Of a stretch of 64,000 nt of DNA, positions 19,781-55,781 are shown one piece after another. The DNA is from Achromobacter insolitus (GTDB taxonomy: Bacteria; Pseudomonadota; Gammaproteobacteria; Burkholderiales; Burkholderiaceae_B), in contig NZ_NJIF01000002.1 in assembly GCF_002209555.1 (NCBI RefSeq), positions 1 through 64,000 on the forward strand. The letters are read 5' to 3'. How positions within the stretch are numbered: the stretch's first letter is position 1; each line of letters starts with the position of its first letter. The position numbers and the translations under genes were made by a program. Below the pieces are notes generated by a model that saw only the letters and a list, made by a program, of their open reading frames with translations, was not told the DNA's origin and did no database searches.

Positions 19781-20466
19781 AGGGTTCCTTGACTACGGCG
19801 CATCCAGATAAGGCAGCGCTCGGCCTGCAATTCAGGCACGCGCAACGGCTGGATGTGATCGACTTGCCATTCTCCGCGCGCATGCAGCGCCTGAATTTCG
19901 TCCTCGGGGACCTTGCCCTTCATGGCGACGAGGGTACCATCGTTGCGTACATGGCGACCTGCGAGTTGCGCAAAATCGTCCAAGGATGCAAAGGCGCGCG
20001 ACGTCACAATATTGCAGTCCGCGGGCGCGAGCGTTTCGATACGGGCGTGGCAGGCCTGCAGGTTGGGCAAAGCCAGTACGCCGCTCATCTGCCGCACGAA
20101 TGCTGTCTTCTTTTCGACCGCGTCCACGCAGGTCACGGACCAATGCGGCCGCATGATCGCCAGGACGACGCCAGGCAGCCCGCCACCCGATCCGACGTCG
20201 TAGACCTTGGCTGGCATCTCGGACGCGCCCAGCGCCTCGCTGAACGGTCCTACGGCGGCCATGCTGTCGAACAGGTGCTGGATCAGCATCTGTTGAGGAT
20301 CGCGGATGGCGGTGAGGTTGTAGGTCCGGTTCCAACGCTGCATCTGGGCCAGATAATTCAGCAGCTTGGCCAGCGCGGCGGCATCGGCCTCCAGCCCCAA
20401 TTGCTCGCATGCGCGAGACAGGCGGCCGGCCATGTCCGCGCCGGCCGTGTCGGTGAGCGCGCTCAT
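19777..20466 (-). CDS. rsmG: 16S rRNA (guanine527-N7)-methyltransferase RsmG
   Basis: SAM-dependent methyltransferase (GidB) for G527 of 16S rRNA, 229 residues. [24 protein letters not shown] is the family signature, [17 protein letters not shown] is the SAM site, and [12 protein letters not shown] follows. The start overlaps the mnmG stop by ATGA and its own stop overlaps parA. Confidence 0.96.
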
Positions 20467-22382
20467 GCCGCTTGTTTGCGCGAGCCGTAGTGCAGGCGCT
20501 TCAGATGGATCAGCAGCAATGAAATTGCAGCGGGGGTAACGCCCGAGATACGCGCGGCCTGGCCGATGGTTTCCGGGCGGTGCGCTTTGAGCTTCTGGCG
20601 GACTTCGAACGACAGGCTGGTCACCGCGTCGTAATCGACATCGGTGGGAATCGCCTGCTGTTCATGCGCTATCTGCTTCTGCACTTCGACCTGTTGGCGG
20701 TCGATGTAGCCCGCGTACTTCACCTGGATCTCGACCTGCTCGGCCAGCACGTCATCTTGCACGACACCGGGACCGGCCAGCAGCGAACCGTCGGTGTTAC
20801 GCGCAGCCATCAAGGCTTCATACGAAACATTCGGGCGTTTGAGCAAATCTGCAAGTGAGTACTCACGTTCAATCGCCTTGCCCAACAGAGGTTCAGCAAC
20901 TTCCGCGGGTAGCACACGCGGATTGACCCAGGATGATTTCAGGCGTTCGACTTCGGCAGCCACGGCGTCGCGCTTGCGGTTGAAAGCGTCCCACCGTGCA
21001 TCGTCGACGATTCCCAGCCGACGGCCGATCTCTGTCAGACGCAGATCGGCATTATCTTCGCGCAGGCTCAACCGGTATTCAGCCCGCGAAGTAAACATCC
21101 GGTACGGCTCGGTCACGCCTCGCGTAACCAGGTCGTCTACCAGCACCCCCAGATAAGCTTCGTCACGACGCGGCGTCCACTGCTCGCGGTCTTGGGAAAA
21201 CAACGCGGCATTGACGCCGGCCAGCAATCCTTGAGCAGCCGCTTCTTCATAGCCTGTGGTGCCGTTGATCTGTCCCGCGAAATACAAGCCAGCAATGGCC
21301 TTGGTTTCGAGCGTGCTCTTCAATCCACGTGGATCGAAGTAGTCATATTCAATGGCGTACCCAGGACGCAAGATGTGCGCATTTTCCAGGCCAGGCAAAG
21401 AATGGATCAGGGCCAGCTGCACGTCGAACGGCAGGCTGGTGGACACGCCGTTTGGGTAGACCTCATGGGTGTCCAGCCCTTCGGGCTCCAGGAACACTTG
21501 ATGCGATTCTTTGTCGGCAAAGCGATGGATCTTGTCTTCGATGGACGGACAGTAGCGCGGCCCCACTCCTTCGATCACACCGCTGTACATCGGCGAACGG
21601 TCCAGCCCGCCGCGAATGATGTCGTGGGTCCGGGCGTTTGTGTGCGTAATCCAGCAGGGCAGCTGGCGCGGGTGCATCCCCACGTTGCCCATATACGAAA
21701 ACACGGGGATCGGATCGAGATCGCCAGGCTGCTCTTCGAGGATGCTGTAGTTGATCGAACGGCCATCGATCCGCGGTGGCGTTCCTGTCTTCAGACGACC
21801 CTGCGGCAGCTTGAGCTCCTTCAGGCGCTGGCCTAGTGAGACGGCGGGAGGATCGCCCGCACGGCCGCCCGAATAGTTCTGCAGCCCCACGTGAATCAGG
21901 CCATTCAAGAACGTGCCAGCGGTAAGTACCACGGACTTCGCGCGAAACTTCAGGCCAATCTGGGTTACCGCGCCGACCACGCGGTCACCTTCCACCATCA
22001 GATCTTCGACTGCCTGTTGGAACAACAAGAGGTTCGGTTGATTTTCCAGGCGGCCGCGGATCGCCTTGCGGTACAGCACTCGATCCGCTTGGGCGCGGGT
22101 AGCACGGACCGCAGGCCCCTTGGAGCCGTTCAGGATGCGGAATTGGATACCCGCTTCATCCGTAGCCAAAGCCATGGCGCCGCCCAGAGCGTCGACTTCT
22201 TTGACAAGATGGCCCTTGCCAATCCCACCGATCGAGGGATTGCAAGACATTTGGCCTAGGGTTTCGATGTTGTGCGTCAACAGCAGCGTCTGCGCGCCAG
22301 TGCGGGCAGCAGCCAACGCTGCTTCGGTGCCGGCGTGGCCGCCACCGACGACGATGACATCGAATTCGCGGGGATAGTCCAT
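20463..22382 (-). CDS. mnmG: tRNA uridine-34 5-carboxymethylaminomethyl synthase subunit MnmG (GidA)
   Basis: FAD-dependent partner of MnmE in wobble-uridine modification, 639 residues, normal length. FAD site [17 protein letters not shown] is at 11-27; family signatures [29 protein letters not shown] and the C-terminal [17 protein letters not shown] are present. It is the first gene after the parS/oriC region, so transcription leads away from the likely origin. The partner gene mnmE lies about 15 kb to the right. Confidence 0.97.
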
Positions 22383-24002: not shown

Positions 24003-24805
24003 GATCTGCGCTGGTTTACGTGGAGTATTTAAAACGGGCTGACACGGCGCGGCCATTCTGAAACGGGCCGGGAACTCTAGCGACCAAATAGGATCAAATC
24101 GCGGCTAAATATTAAGCCGGTGAATTGTCCACAGAGCTATCCACGCATGTTCGTCTTGCGGGCCGCCCCTACGCACATCCCGCGTGCCGCTGCATGGATT
24201 ATTTGACCGGACAACTATCTTGCTCCGCCACGGGAAACCACGCCATCATCCTTATGGGTGAGATCGCCCGCGTCCCATCAGGCCATCTGTGGACAACTTG
24301 CCCGCCAAGATCCGCATCCGCGCCGAGCTAAAGACAAGCCTTATGTTGTGGAAGGCACCGCGCGCTTCCCTCCGGCAAGTGGACCTCAAACCGGCAATCC
24401 CGCCCAAGCACCCCATCCTTCCGAGCCTATCCCCATTTCTATCCACAGGCTGACGGGGCCGAATTGGGCGCCAAACGGCGTAATTCTGTGCATAACCGGT
24501 ATGGGGATATCTTTGTGAACAACCACGGGTCTTAGGGCCCCAATAAGGCCGAAGCTACCGAAGCGAATAATCAAGACCGGCCTCAGACTCGGAGCTACAA
24601 GCGCTCGAAAACCCCGTTAAATGCCTGTATTCCCTGGGGAAAGGGCATCTTTGAGCACAACCGGTCGTGAAGGGAAAGGTGAATGGAAGGCCGACGACCA
24701 TATTCGGAAACCGTTCCAATGAAGGTGGGATAACTGTGCAAAACCCAGCCCGGATGCGCAAATTGCTTCATTGCTGAGCATAAAAATACTCATGCCGAGG
24801 AATAA

Positions 24806-44280: not shown

Positions 44281-45480
44281 ATGAAAACCATAGACGAAAT
44301 CGAACGCGCCCACGGCGACCTCACCGCGTTGCGACGGGATATTCATGCGCATCCCGAGCTGGCTTTCCAGGAGACGCGCACGTCCGCGCTGGTTGCGGAG
44401 CGCTTGCGCGGCTGGGGACTGGAAGTCCACACCGGGCTGGGGAAAACTGGTGTGGTCGGCGTTTTGCGCGCGGGGAGCGGCAAGAAGACTATAGGCCTGC
44501 GTGCCGACATGGATGCGCTGCCCATGCCCGAACACAATCGATTTGCCCACAAATCGACCATCAGTGGACGCATGCACGGCTGTGGCCACGATGGGCACAC
44601 GACCATGCTGCTGGGGGCGGCGCAGTACTTGTCCACGCATCGCGATTTCGATGGAACGGTGGTGTTCATCTTCCAGCCGGCCGAGGAAGGCGGCAACGCC
44701 GGCGCGCGTGCCATGATGCAGGACGGGCTGTTCGATAAATTCCCTTGCGATGCGGTATTCGGCATCCACAACATGCCTGGCATGCCGGTCAATCAGTTTG
44801 GGTTCCGTGCAGGGCCGACGATGGCCTCCAGCAATCGCTGGGACATCGTCATCAAGGGCGTGGGCGGCCATGCGGCGCAGCCGCATGCCTCGGTCGACCC
44901 CATCATCGTCGCGGCCGACATGGTGCATGCCTTGCAGACGGTGATTTCCCGCAGCAAGAATCCGCTGGAGCAGGCGGTGCTGTCGATCACGCAGATCCAC
45001 GCGGGCGATGCGTACAACGTGATTCCGGGCGAGGCCGTGCTACGCGGCACCGTGCGGACCTACTCGGTGGAGACCCTGGACAAGATCGAGGCGGATATGC
45101 GCCGCATCGCGACTACCTTGCCACAAGTCTACGGCGGCACGGGCGAACTGGATTTCGTTCGCGCATATCCGCCCCTGGTCAATTGGGAAAAGGAAACCGC
45201 CTTTGCCGCCCAAGTGGCCGAAGACGCGTTCGGCGCTGAAAACGTGCAGCGCGAAATGCCGCCTTTCATGGGCGCCGAGGACTTCTCTTTCTTCCTCGAG
45301 TCGGTGCCGGGAACATATCTGTTCCTGGGTAATGGCGATGGCGACCACCGCATGGAAACCTATCACGGCATGGGTCCATGCCAGCTCCACAACCCGAATT
45401 ACGACTTCAACGACGCCCTGCTGCCGGTGGGCGCAACTTATTGGGTGAAGCTGGTGCAGGCATTCTTGCCTAAGGCTTGA
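44281..45480 (+). CDS. M20 family amidohydrolase (hippurate hydrolase/N-acyl amino acid hydrolase type)
   Basis: 399-residue metallohydrolase that cleaves N-acyl amino acids or similar amides. Metal motifs are RRDIHAHPELAFQE, GLRADMDALPM, RMHGCGHDGHTTMLLGAA and FQPAEEGGNAGARAM; the dimerisation domain has the catalytic GVGGHAAQPHASVDPI; MGAEDFSFF and QLHNPNYDFND close the site. It follows the oligopeptide transporter by 97 nt and likely processes what it imports. The sequence TTATCCACA (44269-44277) sits 3 nt before the ATG, where a Shine-Dalgarno sequence would be expected; none is obvious. Confidence 0.92.
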   Translation: MKTIDEIERAHGDLTALRRDIHAHPELAFQETRTSALVAERLRGWGLEVHTGLGKTGVVGVLRAGSGKKTIGLRADMDALPMPEHNRFAHKSTISGRMHGCGHDGHTTMLLGAAQYLSTHRDFDGTVVFIFQPAEEGGNAGARAMMQDGLFDKFPCDAVFGIHNMPGMPVNQFGFRAGPTMASSNRWDIVIKGVGGHAAQPHASVDPIIVAADMVHALQTVISRSKNPLEQAVLSITQIHAGDAYNVIPGEAVLRGTVRTYSVETLDKIEADMRRIATTLPQVYGGTGELDFVRAYPPLVNWEKETAFAAQVAEDAFGAENVQREMPPFMGAEDFSFFLESVPGTYLFLGNGDGDHRMETYHGMGPCQLHNPNYDFNDALLPVGATYWVKLVQAFLPKA

Positions 45481-45500
45481 TCAGCGCAAGTCATTGATTT

Positions 45501-45536
45501 AAAAGGCGCGGACGCTCGGCGGTCCGCGCCTTTTTT
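45501..45536 (+). terminator. Terminator of the oligopeptide/M20 operon
   Basis: AAAAGGCGCGGAC and GTCCGCGCC arms with an 8-nt loop, followed by six T. Confidence 0.9.
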
Positions 45537-45550
45537 CATGCTGGAGGCCT

Positions 45551-45674
45551 GTTATGCACAGGCTGTCCACCTGCTATTCACCGGCTATCCACCGGGATAT
45601 CCCCTGACAATCCACCGCTTTTCCCTGGCTTGCCACCAGGCTTATCCCAAGACTTATCCACAGGCCTGGCACAG
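45551..45674 (+). repeat. Helically phased array of DnaA-box-like elements
   Basis: Eleven 9-bp elements related to TTATNCACA start at 45552, 45563, 45574, 45585, 45597, 45608, 45619, 45629, 45642, 45654 and 45665, with steps of 11, 11, 11, 12, 11, 11, 10, 13, 12 and 11 bp. The first (TTATGCACA) and tenth (TTATCCACA) match the DnaA consensus; those between share a C-T-A-T-C-C-A-C-C-like pattern. All point the same way. A short 63-codon frame crosses it, but an 11-bp period cannot reflect a protein repeat. It lies in the 387-bp gap between the M20 terminator and the taurine-type operon. Confidence 0.65.
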
Positions 45675-45867
45675 GCAGTTTCCGGTGCTCCGCGCATGGC
45701 GGGAGCCCCTCGCGCGGATAAGCTTATAGCTGCAATGCGATAGCGCGCCATATGACGCGCAGGCTTGAACAAAGGCCGAATAATTCGTTTGCGTAGGGGT
45801 TGCGCGTTTTCATAATGGATCGTTCCTGAGCCGGCCTGGCCGGCGGCATTCGCGCAAGGAGCGATCC

Positions 45868-46773
45868 ATGTCCCAGAGCAACGCGCTGCGCCGGTCCGAG
45901 GCGTATGCCGAACCCGCGACGCAAGATTTTTCGATTCGTCCGCTTGCAGCCGTGACGGGCGCTGAAATCGTCGGCATCGATCTGTCGCGCGAGCTGGCAC
46001 CAGCCGATTTCGCCAAGGTGCATCGCGCGCATCTGGATCACCACCTGCTGGTGTTCCGCGACCAGCGCATCACGCCGCAACAGCACATCGACTTCAGCCG
46101 CCGTTTCGGCCGGCTGATGATCCATGTGCTGCATCAGTTCCATCTGCCCGGGCACCCCGAAATCCTGATCGTCTCCAACATCGTTGAGGACGGCAAGCCT
46201 ATAGGGCTGGGCGACGCCGGCAAGTACTGGCATTCGGACATCTCGTACAAGGAATTGCCCAGCCTGGGCTCGCTGCTGCATGCGCAGGAACTACCCTCGC
46301 AAGGCGGCGACACGCTATTCGCCGACATGCATGTAGCGTACGACACCCTGCCCGCAGCCTTGCGCGATGCCATCGAGGGCAAGCGCGCCGTGCATTCCTA
46401 CCTGGCCAAATACGGGCAACTGCAAAAGGAAGGCGCCTGGCGCCCCAACCTCAGCGCGCAGCAGGTCGCGCAAGTGCAGGAGGTGGTGCATCCGGTGGTA
46501 CGGACGCACCCGGAAACGGGACGTCGCGCCCTGTTCGTGAGCGAAGGCTTCACGACACGCATTGTCGGCCTGCCTGACGACGAAAGCCGCCAGATCCTGG
46601 ACGAACTGTTCGCCCACAGCATCCGGTCCGAACACATCTACCGCCATCAGTGGCAGCCGCAAGACCTGGTCTTCTGGGACAACCGGTCGCTGATCCACCT
46701 GGCCGGCGGCACGCCGGATCACCTGCGCCGCAAGCTGTACCGCACCACGATCGAAGGCGACACGCCCTTTTGA
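45868..46773 (+). CDS. TauD/TfdA-family Fe(II)/2-oxoglutarate dioxygenase
   Basis: 301-residue dioxygenase that hydroxylates a sulfonate such as taurine, or a related anion, releasing sulfite in the TauD case. Iron ligands are H122 and D124 in YWHSDISY and H277 in DNRSLIHLAGG; the C-terminal RRKLYRTT holds the 2-oxoglutarate Arg. It is upstream of a sulfonate-type ABC importer in the same direction, so it likely attacks the imported compound. The gene order tauD-A-B-C differs from the E. coli tauABCD order. Confidence 0.88.
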   Translation: MSQSNALRRSEAYAEPATQDFSIRPLAAVTGAEIVGIDLSRELAPADFAKVHRAHLDHHLLVFRDQRITPQQHIDFSRRFGRLMIHVLHQFHLPGHPEILIVSNIVEDGKPIGLGDAGKYWHSDISYKELPSLGSLLHAQELPSQGGDTLFADMHVAYDTLPAALRDAIEGKRAVHSYLAKYGQLQKEGAWRPNLSAQQVAQVQEVVHPVVRTHPETGRRALFVSEGFTTRIVGLPDDESRQILDELFAHSIRSEHIYRHQWQPQDLVFWDNRSLIHLAGGTPDHLRRKLYRTTIEGDTPF

Positions 46774-47868: not shown

Positions 47869-48702
47869 ATGGGACTGAGCGCCGCCGCCCCTGTGGATAA
47901 CACCGAAAAGGCCACGCCTTTGCTGGCTGTGGATAAGGTGTCGATCGAATACAAGACGCGCGAACGGCGCGTGCGTGCCACGCATCAGGTCAGTTTCGAG
48001 GTACATGATGCGGAGCGATTCATCCTGCTGGGTGCATCCGGCTGCGGCAAGTCCACGCTGCTCAAGGCGGTTGCGGGCTTCATCGACCCGACCGAAGGCC
48101 GCATCGCCCTCGATGGCAAGCCTGTGCGCGGACCCGGGCCCGACCGCATCGTGGTGTTCCAGGAATTCGACCAATTGCCACCGTGGAAAACGCTGCGCCA
48201 GAACGTGGCTTTTCCGCTCGTGGCCTCGCGCAAGCTGGGACGGCGCGAGGCGGACGAGCGCGCGATGCACTACTTGGAGAAGGTAGGCCTGTCTGCATTT
48301 GCCGATGCCTATCCGCACACCTTGTCGGGCGGCATGAAGCAGCGCGTGGCCATTGCGCGCGCGCTGGCGATGCAGCCGCGCGTATTGCTGATGGACGAAC
48401 CCTTCGCTGCGCTCGATGCACTGACCCGGCGGCGCATGCAGGAAGAGTTGCTGGCGCTATGGGAAGAGGTGCGCTTTACGCTGCTCTTTGTCACCCATTC
48501 GATCGAAGAGGCCCTGGTGCTGGGCAGTCGAGTGCTGCTGCTGTCGCCGCATCCCGGACGTGTGCGCGCGGAGCTGAATGCTCATGCCTTCGGGCTGCAT
48601 AGCCAGGGCTCGGCGGCCTTCCAGTCGGCTGCCAGACGCATCCACGACCTGCTGTTCGACACGGCGCCGGCGGAGCAAGCAGCCGAACGTGCCGCGGCCT
48701 GA
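47869..48702 (+). CDS. Taurine/sulfonate-type ABC ATP-binding protein
   Basis: 277-residue ATPase of the TauB/SsuB class. Walker [29 protein letters not shown], signature LSGGMKQRVAIARAL, Walker B LLMDEPFAALD, VTHSIEEAL. It starts one base after the previous stop. Two perfect DnaA boxes fall in its first 25 codons (47892-47900 and 47928-47936, both TGTGGATAA as written). Confidence 0.93.
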   Translation: MGLSAAAPVDNTEKATPLLAVDKVSIEYKTRERRVRATHQVSFEVHDAERFILLGASGCGKSTLLKAVAGFIDPTEGRIALDGKPVRGPGPDRIVVFQEFDQLPPWKTLRQNVAFPLVASRKLGRREADERAMHYLEKVGLSAFADAYPHTLSGGMKQRVAIARALAMQPRVLLMDEPFAALDALTRRRMQEELLALWEEVRFTLLFVTHSIEEALVLGSRVLLLSPHPGRVRAELNAHAFGLHSQGSAAFQSAARRIHDLLFDTAPAEQAAERAAA

Positions 48703-53922: not shown

Positions 53923-54317
53923 GGACGATCCACAAAAAGAACAAAAGTCAGAAGGGACCTGCCCGGAGGGTTCCTGGTCGCGTATTCAGGAAGCGGGTAT
54001 CTAATGAGCATTTTTGCAACAGGTGCAAAAAATCAGCTCGTAGACGGGGCTCTGACCGGGGAAATCCCGGGCGACCTATAGAAGCTAAGACGAGGCAGTT
54101 GCGTGGGCAGCGGAGTCATTACAAACCACTGCCAACAAAGCGCGGCTAAGCTCTTTCTGGAACCTTCTGACAGACAGAATTCGGAAAAGCCCACCATTTC
54201 AGCAAGTTTTCCCTGTCTTGTCAAACAGTTAAGACCGGGGGGCGTGGACTCTTATGCCCTACCCTGTGGATAACCCCAGCCCAGGCAAGGTAGAATCGAG
54301 GTTTGAATAAGAGCGAC
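53923..54317. promoter_or_regulatory. Divergent rpmH/dnaA control region
   Basis: This 395-bp gap holds both promoters. A perfect DnaA box on the reverse strand (54265-54273, TGTGGATAA as written) lies 45 bp before the dnaA ATG, well placed for DnaA autoregulation. A TTTTTGCA/TGCAAAAA inverted repeat occurs at 54010-54030. In pseudomonads this gap is oriC; here only one perfect box is present, so I favour the mnmG-side region as the origin. Confidence 0.65.
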
Positions 54318-55781
54318 ATGAAAGAATTCTGGCAGACCTGCGTCAGTCGTCTTGAGCAGGAACTCCCCCCCCAACAAATCAGCGCGTGGATACGACCGCT
54401 GGTCCCGCTTGCGTACGACGAAACGCAGGCGGTGCTGCGCGTTGCCGCTCCCAACCGGTTCAAGCTGGATTGGGTGCGCAAGAACTTTTCCCACCAGATC
54501 GAAGCGTTGGCCGCGGAGTGGTTCGAGCGTCCGGTGCAGGTGCTGTTCGAGTTGCCCACGCAAGGCGCCGCGCCGCGCATGCCGGTCGCCCCGGTACGCG
54601 CCGCGCCCGCCGTGCCCGCGCATCCGTCCGCTGCTTCGCCCTCAGGCGGAGCGCCGCCACCAGCGCCTGCGGCAGTGTCCGCTCCGCCTGTAGCCGCGCC
54701 CGCGACGACAGCGGCCGCGCAGGCGGTGAATGCCGATGCAGCCAGCATCGTGTACGAGCGCTCGCGCCTGAACACGGATCTGACGTTCGAGAACTTCGTG
54801 ACGGGTAAGGCCAACCAGTTGGCACGCGCGGCCGCGCTGCAGGTGGCCGAGAACCCGGGCACGTCCTACAACCCGTTGTTCCTGTATGGCGGCGTGGGCC
54901 TGGGCAAGACCCACCTGATCCATGCCATCGGCAACGCGATGGTGGCTGCCGGCACGGGTGTGCGCGTGCGCTATGTGCATGCCGACCAATACGTGTCCGA
55001 CGTGGTGAAGGCGTACCAGCGCAAGGCGTTCGACGATTTCAAGCGCTACTACCACTCGCTCGATCTGTTGCTGATCGACGATATCCAGTTCTTCTCCGGC
55101 AAGAACCGCACGCAGGAAGAATTCTTCTATGCGTTCGAAGCGATGGTGGCGCAGCGCAAGCAGATCATCATCACCAGCGACACCTATCCGAAGGAGCTGT
55201 CCGGCATCGACAGCCGCCTGATCTCGCGCTTTGATTCCGGGCTGACTGTGGCCATCGAGCCGCCGGAACTGGAAATGCGCGTGGCGATTCTGCTGCGCAA
55301 GGCGGAATCCGAAGGCGTGCCCATGCCCGAGGAAGTGGCTTTCTTCATTGCCAAGCATCTGCGCAGCAACGTGCGCGAACTTGAAGGCGCGCTGCGCAAG
55401 GTGCTGGCCTATGCCCGCTTCCACGGCCGCGACGTGCTGACGGTGGATGTCTGCAAGGAAGCGCTGAAGGACCTGCTGTCGGTGTCCAACGGACAGATCA
55501 CCGTGGAGAACATCCAGAAAACGGTGGCGGATTTCTACAAGATCAAAGTGGCCGACATGTACTCGAAACGCCGGCCCGCCAATATCGCTTTGCCGCGCCA
55601 GGTGGCGATGTACCTGGCCAAGGAGCTGACTCAGAAAAGCCTGCCGGAAATCGGCGATCTGTTCGGTGGCCGTGATCACACCACCGTGCTGCATGCCGTA
55701 CGCAAGATTTCCGACGCCCGCGCCAAGCAAGCGGAGCTCAACCATACCCTGCACGTGTTGGAACAAACTCTAAAAGGATGA
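54318..55781 (+). CDS. dnaA: Chromosomal replication initiator DnaA
   Basis: 487-residue AAA+ initiator. Domain I is at 1-80 ([20 protein letters not shown] onward), a Pro/Ala-rich linker at about 82-140, and the ATPase at about 150-370 with Walker [10 protein letters not shown] (191-199) and Walker [10 protein letters not shown]. Domain IV ends with the DNA-binding signature [18 protein letters not shown] 54318 gives the usual start; a TTG at 54303 is in frame and less likely. First of dnaA-dnaN-gyrB. Confidence 0.98.

Follow-up and report, generated by a model that had tools for sequence, protein, structure and literature searches.

An ordered array of DnaA-box-like elements outside the probable replication origin of Achromobacter insolitus and its relatives

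Ordered arrays of weak DnaA sites are known from replication origins. In E. coli oriC the low-affinity sites, with 2 bp between them, fail to bind DnaA on their own and are filled cooperatively from a strong box, and positions 1-4 of the 9-mer have been suggested to set the preference for ATP-DnaA (PMC6727663). T. maritima DnaA pairs best on two same-direction boxes 2 bp apart (PMC10316083). B. subtilis and Streptomyces have DnaA-box clusters outside oriC as well (PMC5295017, PMC5742627), and these are described as repressing untimely initiation (PMC5742627). A single B. subtilis cluster restored at various places partly relieved early initiation, and the same review holds that no cluster with a significant role has been identified in this organism, unlike in E. 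coli (PMC5295017). E. coli DnaA is reportedly titrated by the chromosome (PMC12371093). The E. coli datA locus has a single IHF site beside its DnaA boxes, depends on IHF and follows the terminator of a tRNA operon (PMC10950094). It is described as always lying close to oriC; moving it near terC caused asynchrony, whereas positions closer to oriC gave a near wild-type result (PMC4585315). These descriptions, and the comparisons built on them below, follow excerpts of the cited papers.

The DNA examined here is a 64-kb stretch of the A. insolitus genome (the window). Eleven DnaA-box-like 9-mers fill positions 45552-45673 on the plus strand, starting at 45552, 45563, 45574, 45585, 45597, 45608, 45618, 45629, 45642, 45654 and 45665, i.e., in steps of 11, 11, 11, 12, 11, 10, 11, 13, 12 and 11 bp. 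This bears out an earlier note on the sequence, which had described eleven elements of one orientation at steps of 10-13 bp with the first and the tenth fitting the DnaA consensus. Box 1 (TTATGCACA, 45552-45560) and the strong terminal box 10 (TTATCCACA, 45654-45662) indeed fit the consensus TTATNCACA, and the others are weaker. The eight weak boxes between them (45563-45650), several of which are CTATCCACC-like, agree with 4-6 of the 8 fixed consensus positions and are predicted to be low-affinity cooperative sites. Element 11 (CCTGGCACA, 45665-45673), weak as well and with agreement in the same 4-6 of 8 range, lies beyond the conserved block and is probably not part of the functional array. 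The further statement that all boxes face roughly one side of the helix is ruled out by simple arithmetic, since the ten steps between the first and the last start add up to 113 bp, which is ten turns of 10.5 bp plus 8 bp.

The upstream gene, encoding an M20-family peptidase (44281-45480, plus strand), marks the position that we call locus A. It is followed by a candidate IHF site on the minus strand (AATCAATGACTTG, 45487-45499), a perfect match to WATCAANNNNTTR, which we take to be the IHF consensus. Between this site and the array lies a hairpin with a T tail (45501-45536, plus strand, z -4.6), a probable terminator that a consensus terminator scan did not list. The downstream gene belongs to the TauD family (45868-46773, plus strand) and is not always the neighbor of the array in relatives. 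The array region has 58% GC and is 8.6 kb from dnaA (54303-55781, plus strand) and 21 kb from the mnmG-side origin, so its neighborhood, including the position after a terminator, is as first described. Three other identities were discarded. A minus-strand ORF of 140 codons spans most of the array, but a period of 11 bp does not preserve a reading frame; for a mobile element there was no match among phages and one partial match among plasmids, a Buchnera pTrp repeat; and in the window only three tRNAs reach the gathering score of a known RNA family.

The array is real, conserved and beyond chance. Chains were scored by their matches to TTATNCACA (8 fixed positions), with steps of 10-13 bp allowed. 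The array itself is the top 11-element chain in the window: it scores 61, compared with a mean of 45.9 (sd 1.2, maximum 50) in 60 order-2 Markov simulations of 64 kb on both strands; the chance periodicity against which the earlier note had warned does not reach this score. Among the plus-strand chains listed, the only other one above 50 outside the array region is at 24739 (score 54), in the probable oriC. Chains with a fixed 11-bp step also exceeded the simulated maxima, with four elements (25 vs. 21) and with six (31 vs. 28), and Tandem Repeats Finder reported periods of 11 bp (45553-45595) and 22 bp (45548-45593). A pattern of three phased TnTCCAC units, with one mismatch allowed, occurred in 26 of the 43 genus genomes and its reversed control in none of them. 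In 200 genomes drawn from the family this pattern was found in 17, four of them of the same genus, and the control in one. Twenty-five of the 26 genus matches are the arrays of loci A and B (see below) and one, in G047, is another cluster. With three mismatches allowed, the source genome gave four matches, two in the array and two elsewhere (2 and 3 mismatches), and no control match. Tandem Repeats Finder, the genus-wide pattern with its control and the simulated chains are independent tests of the array. The matrix behind the scores for C arrays, for steps and units and for box positions was built from the arrays themselves, so those scores are descriptive and are no test of the arrays.

An array is present at locus A in 12 of the 43 genus genomes, at locus B in 13 and at locus C in nine, i.e., 34 genomes have a clear array, one has a weak one (G007) and eight have none. 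The gap after the M20 gene could be read in 42 genomes, 12 with the array and 30 without. Across the 12 locus-A arrays the columns show 92% mean identity and 68% are invariant, against 77% and 24% for the 45 bases before the array and 49% and 0% for the 36 bases after it; the stretch with the IHF-like site reaches 92% and 66%. The steps are 11, 11, 11, 12, 11, 10-11, 10-11, 13 and 12 in 11 of the 12 arrays, while the twelfth (G048) has one extra 11-bp unit; G055 has one extra base. Spacing is therefore conserved among relatives, the comparison that the earlier note had called for: it is nearly fixed, and differences in length are mostly whole 11-bp units. Arrays at loci A and B alike end with two long steps and then a strong box, and in all 25 of them this last box agrees with at least 7 of the 8 consensus positions. 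Different sequence follows the same locus-A array in G055, G057 and G058, and the TauD side of G001 lies about 3 kb off, which indicates that the array and the TauD operon are not linked as a unit. Array and dnaA share a contig in 11 of the 12 genomes and are 8.6 to about 12 kb apart there, with the contigs of G016 and G057 assumed to be circular.

Locus B, readable in 41 of the 43 genomes, adjoins a DUF2809 gene and an MFS or SpecificRecomb gene. None of its 13 array genomes also has a locus-A array. All 13 arrays consist of 5-9 units in steps of 11 with a final 12, 12, and in the seven genomes with a shared contig they lie about 307-405 kb from dnaA. A whole-genome search of the 43 genomes with a sequence-only four-unit model, for which stricter filters lose weak matches, recovered exactly the 25 A and B genomes at 36.9 bits or more, and the best match outside those arrays scored 21.3. 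Locus C, 0.4-7 kb past the M20 gene, carries a variant array on the opposite strand (e.g., AAAGTTATCCCCATTCGTCCACAGCCAATTCACAGGCAATCCACAGGAATTCCACAGG) in nine genomes (G002, G008, G015, G019, G024, G044, G045, G047 and G056), about 5 kb from dnaA in the five that share a contig (G002, G008, G015, G024 and G056). The cluster of G007 is weaker (24.4 bits) and 163 kb from dnaA. In the genome search nothing above 16 bits was found in G003, G005, G018, G020, G041, G049, G050 (78% complete) and G054; since these eight array-less genomes of 43 include a clade of six, the array is dispensable. A second, weaker DnaA-box cluster occurs in G047 (L306), where it follows the apparent C-terminus of SSB, in G019 (L307) and possibly in G008 (L357, a match of 21.3 bits), so that a single copy in each genome is strictly the rule only for the strong arrays of loci A and B.

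In a tree of the M20 gene from 42 genomes, the place of the array follows the clades. The locus-A genomes form one group (87/87) and the C genomes together with G008 one branch (100/99), while locus B requires two changes; the total is five changes, with G008 scored as having none, against 23.2 in shuffles. An AGTTATCC element lies 10 bp ahead of the first unit in 12 of the 13 B arrays and occurs as AGTTATYC in all nine C arrays. We read loci A, B and C as probable relocations of one module; the alternative is that the arrays at different loci arose independently under the same constraint.

Similar arrays occur beyond the genus. By eye, runs of boxes at 11-12 bp were seen in eight of ten examined genomes of genus g59, of the same family, and no such run in the other two (G129 and G217). 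On one side of the run is a gene for an amino-acid kinase, read as argB; on the other side is a MerR-family gene in G239 and a heavy-metal ATPase gene in G151. On shared contigs the run is 508-665 kb from dnaA in G100, G151, G170 and G239 and 625 kb in G188, which has different flanking genes; these distances make up about 0.09-0.11 of the genome length. In both genera, no array that has dnaA on its contig is farther from it than about 11% of the genome. In G120 a similar array adjoins mnmG (GidA family). Scanning 84,980 species genomes for exact three-unit matches gave at least 118 stretches, and among the 80 matches listed across bacteria 23 have dnaA or dnaN in a stretch of at most 8 kb. 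Two of the 80 listed are named Achromobacter: the A. piechaudii stretch (L109) reads as the G046 array (locus B) and that of A. veterisilvae (L133) as the G055 array (locus A).

The probable oriC region of the source genome (22400-24950) lies beside an mnmG-like ORF (20463-22382, minus strand), identified as mnmG by alignment with G120. It has many DnaA boxes on both strands, lower GC and several TGTTTCACGTGAAACA-like sites, presumably parS; the minimum of the cumulative GC skew is nearer 33 kb. The window contains 56 near-matches to TTATNCACA where 19 are expected, many of them at 16-50 kb, which amounts to a general enrichment in DnaA boxes. In its anatomy the array resembles the weak arrays of E. 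coli oriC (left R5M, tau2, I1 and I2; right C1-C3 and I3), having weak same-direction 9-mers about 2 bp apart beside strong boxes, and its spacing is that at which pairing is best in the DnaA-oligomerisation region of T. maritima oriC. Those arrays are inside oriC, whereas the present ones lie kilobases to hundreds of kilobases away; the 58% GC and the lack of conservation in the following sequence do not fit an adjacent AT-rich unwinding element. The consensus score does not set apart the weak arrays of E. coli oriC, whose best 5-chains reach 26 and 23, and datA is equally unremarkable, so that the likeness rests on published spacing and anatomy.

The datA locus, a DnaA-inactivating site that stimulates hydrolysis of ATP-DnaA and the loss of which leads to untimely initiation, shares with the array an origin-proximal position after a terminator and, at locus A, the combination of an IHF-like site with DnaA boxes. 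The window has two strict matches to the IHF consensus, one being that at 45487-45499. Measured from start to start, such a match lies 64-65 bp ahead of every one of the 12 locus-A arrays; it was found in none of the 30 array-less locus-A gaps and, within 600 bp, in none of the 13 array-bearing locus-B gaps. In 3-kb stretches the consensus occurs about 0.9-1.3 kb from the array in eight of the 13 B loci and is absent from 14 array loci (five of nine C, G007 and eight g59). Because, among the loci scanned, the close site is found at locus A only, IHF was dropped as a general component of the array. The box arrangement of datA is also different, with near-consensus plus-strand boxes 67 and 162 bp apart and no 11-bp array by the same score: the best plus-strand 5-chain reaches 26 in the datA region (L354) and 30 here, a coarse test given that the consensus score fails to single out E. 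coli oriC as well (26). With a different box arrangement, and a close IHF site at locus A only, the array is probably not a member of the datA class; its resemblance to datA at locus A is worth noting, yet it does not extend to the other loci.

As in the oriC-proximal clusters of B. subtilis and those of Streptomyces, several close boxes occur here outside oriC and above chance, and the partial function of a B. subtilis cluster at various places recalls the different loci of the array. These organisms belong to other phyla, and B. subtilis has six clusters against one main array here. Together with the 2-bp-spaced sites of E. coli oriC and the T. maritima pairs, as they appear in the excerpts, they make the claim that no element of this form had been described too strong. 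A run on the Buchnera pTrp plasmid (NZ_LT667502; L355:1-123) is also similar, with about 11 head-to-tail TTATCCACCGG units and an 11-bp period, although it is on a 2.9-kb endosymbiont plasmid; it is perhaps a DnaA-dependent origin. The literature on Bordetella (DnaA box, oriC) and Achromobacter (DnaA box) yielded, at the level of titles, none on such an array. As far as the literature was searched, the array is thus known in kind, and an oriC-type array of weak boxes away from the origin, at clade-specific and origin-proximal places, is a new combination.

The explanation that we favor, and consider somewhat probable, is that the array is an off-origin DnaA-oligomerisation site that titrates DnaA or helps to inactivate it, as datA or the clusters of other bacteria do. 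The earlier suggestion of an array apart from the origin that would suit a cooperative filament or a titration site is supported by the spacing and by boxes conserved in relatives. DnaA would bind the strong end boxes first, chiefly the downstream TTATCCACA, and would then be passed along the weak boxes, the spacing of which would suit head-to-tail contacts. The resulting oligomer of about ten DnaA molecules, probably in the ATP form, would remove DnaA from the pool and might promote ATP hydrolysis. An origin-proximal array would double soon after initiation, and re-initiation at oriC would be held back. A DnaA oligomer nucleated at a strong box would be the simplest reading of the sequence, and titration or promoted hydrolysis near the origin its most likely use, in view of the B. 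subtilis and Streptomyces clusters, the titration of DnaA in E. coli and the lack of a SeqA match in the source genome (the E. coli control was positive). In the DnaA of this genome, domain IV can be aligned with 1j1v and the DHTT stretch is retained; ARPRQ has leucine in place of its first arginine.

Several observations favor this off-origin oligomerisation site: the array is non-random, 25 of the 43 genomes have one strong copy, conservation is above that of the flanks, and the steps are near-fixed. The 2-bp spacing excerpted for E. coli and T. maritima, the co-occurrence with dnaA or dnaN in 23 of the 80 listed loci, the origin-proximal places and the lack of a SeqA match point the same way. 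It is weakened by the array-less genomes, by the restriction of the close IHF site to locus A and by the unremarkable score of E. coli oriC. Departures of the inner boxes are only partly at the positions linked to ATP preference, and some ten sites are few beside 56 near-matches in the window alone. The excerpted view of the B. subtilis review on clusters also argues against it, and the sign of the effect is not readable from the sequence. We infer binding of DnaA, its nucleotide preference and a negative effect on initiation.

That last point leaves room for the opposite sign. In a positive, DARS-like site an oligomer of ADP-DnaA would release ADP and recharge the protein, and the DnaA-box clusters of DARS sites do also make ADP-DnaA oligomerise, according to the excerpted source (PMC5742627). 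We regard such a site as unlikely: the origin-proximal places of the array resemble those of datA, and the inner boxes fit the consensus less well at positions 1-4 (65%), the suggested ATP-preference positions, than at positions 6-8 (89%). The latter argument is weak, since departures are mostly at positions 1 and 9, with most of the loss within positions 1-4 at position 1. An operator role, with DnaA bound at the array controlling transcription of a flanking gene, is more doubtful still. At locus B and in g59 the array is upstream of a gene start (in g59 that of the MerR or metal-ATPase gene), but the flanking genes differ by locus (M20 peptidase and TauD; DUF2809 and MFS or SpecificRecomb; amino-acid kinase and MerR or metal ATPase), the sequence 3' of the locus-A array varies in G055, G057, G058 and G001 as noted above, and no sigma-70-like promoter was found in 45400-45900.

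The proximity of the array to the mnmG-side origin and to dnaA, and the G120 array next to mnmG, would also suit a relic or satellite half of a replication origin; the GC content, the distances of hundreds of kilobases to dnaA measurable at seven B loci and the non-conserved sequence after the array make this improbable. The variable number of units, as in simple repeats, could point to a tandem repeat that is neutral or is bound by some protein other than DnaA, but this is very improbable given the conserved unequal steps and end boxes, conservation exceeding that of the flanks, the single strong array of each A or B genome and the enrichment beside dnaA across phyla among the matches listed.

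Within the favored reading of an off-origin oligomerisation site, arrays at differing near-origin places in relatives suggest a portable sponge or off-switch against over-frequent copying. More tentatively, and as a possibility on which we would not yet rely, a portable oriC-like DnaA array, mostly in one strong copy per genome, may have moved repeatedly among unrelated intergenic sites while staying origin-proximal and may regulate initiation, selection keeping the ordered array and its gene dosage and not its address. If so, nature would have produced a relocated equivalent of datA, built on another architecture. What is known of how bacteria without SeqA prevent re-initiation comes largely from a small number of model species. 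Comparable arrays, found at three or more places among sister clades, and species without any together form a natural position experiment in which titration versus hydrolysis and copy-number timing become directly testable. They also indicate that weak-box arrays typical of oriC occur as free-standing modules.

Further runs and boxes of this kind were observed. A Dependentiae MAG (L124) has about 15 TTATCCACCAC units with an 11-bp period, and no dnaA or dnaN was found in that stretch. A long intergenic run of TTATCCACCCGG-like units is present in G242 (L332), of another genus of the family. In the window itself, two TTATCCACA boxes 36 bp apart lie on the minus strand at 47892-47936, in the start of the ORF at 47869 and about 2.4 kb past the M20 gene, which is roughly the place of the C array in some relatives.
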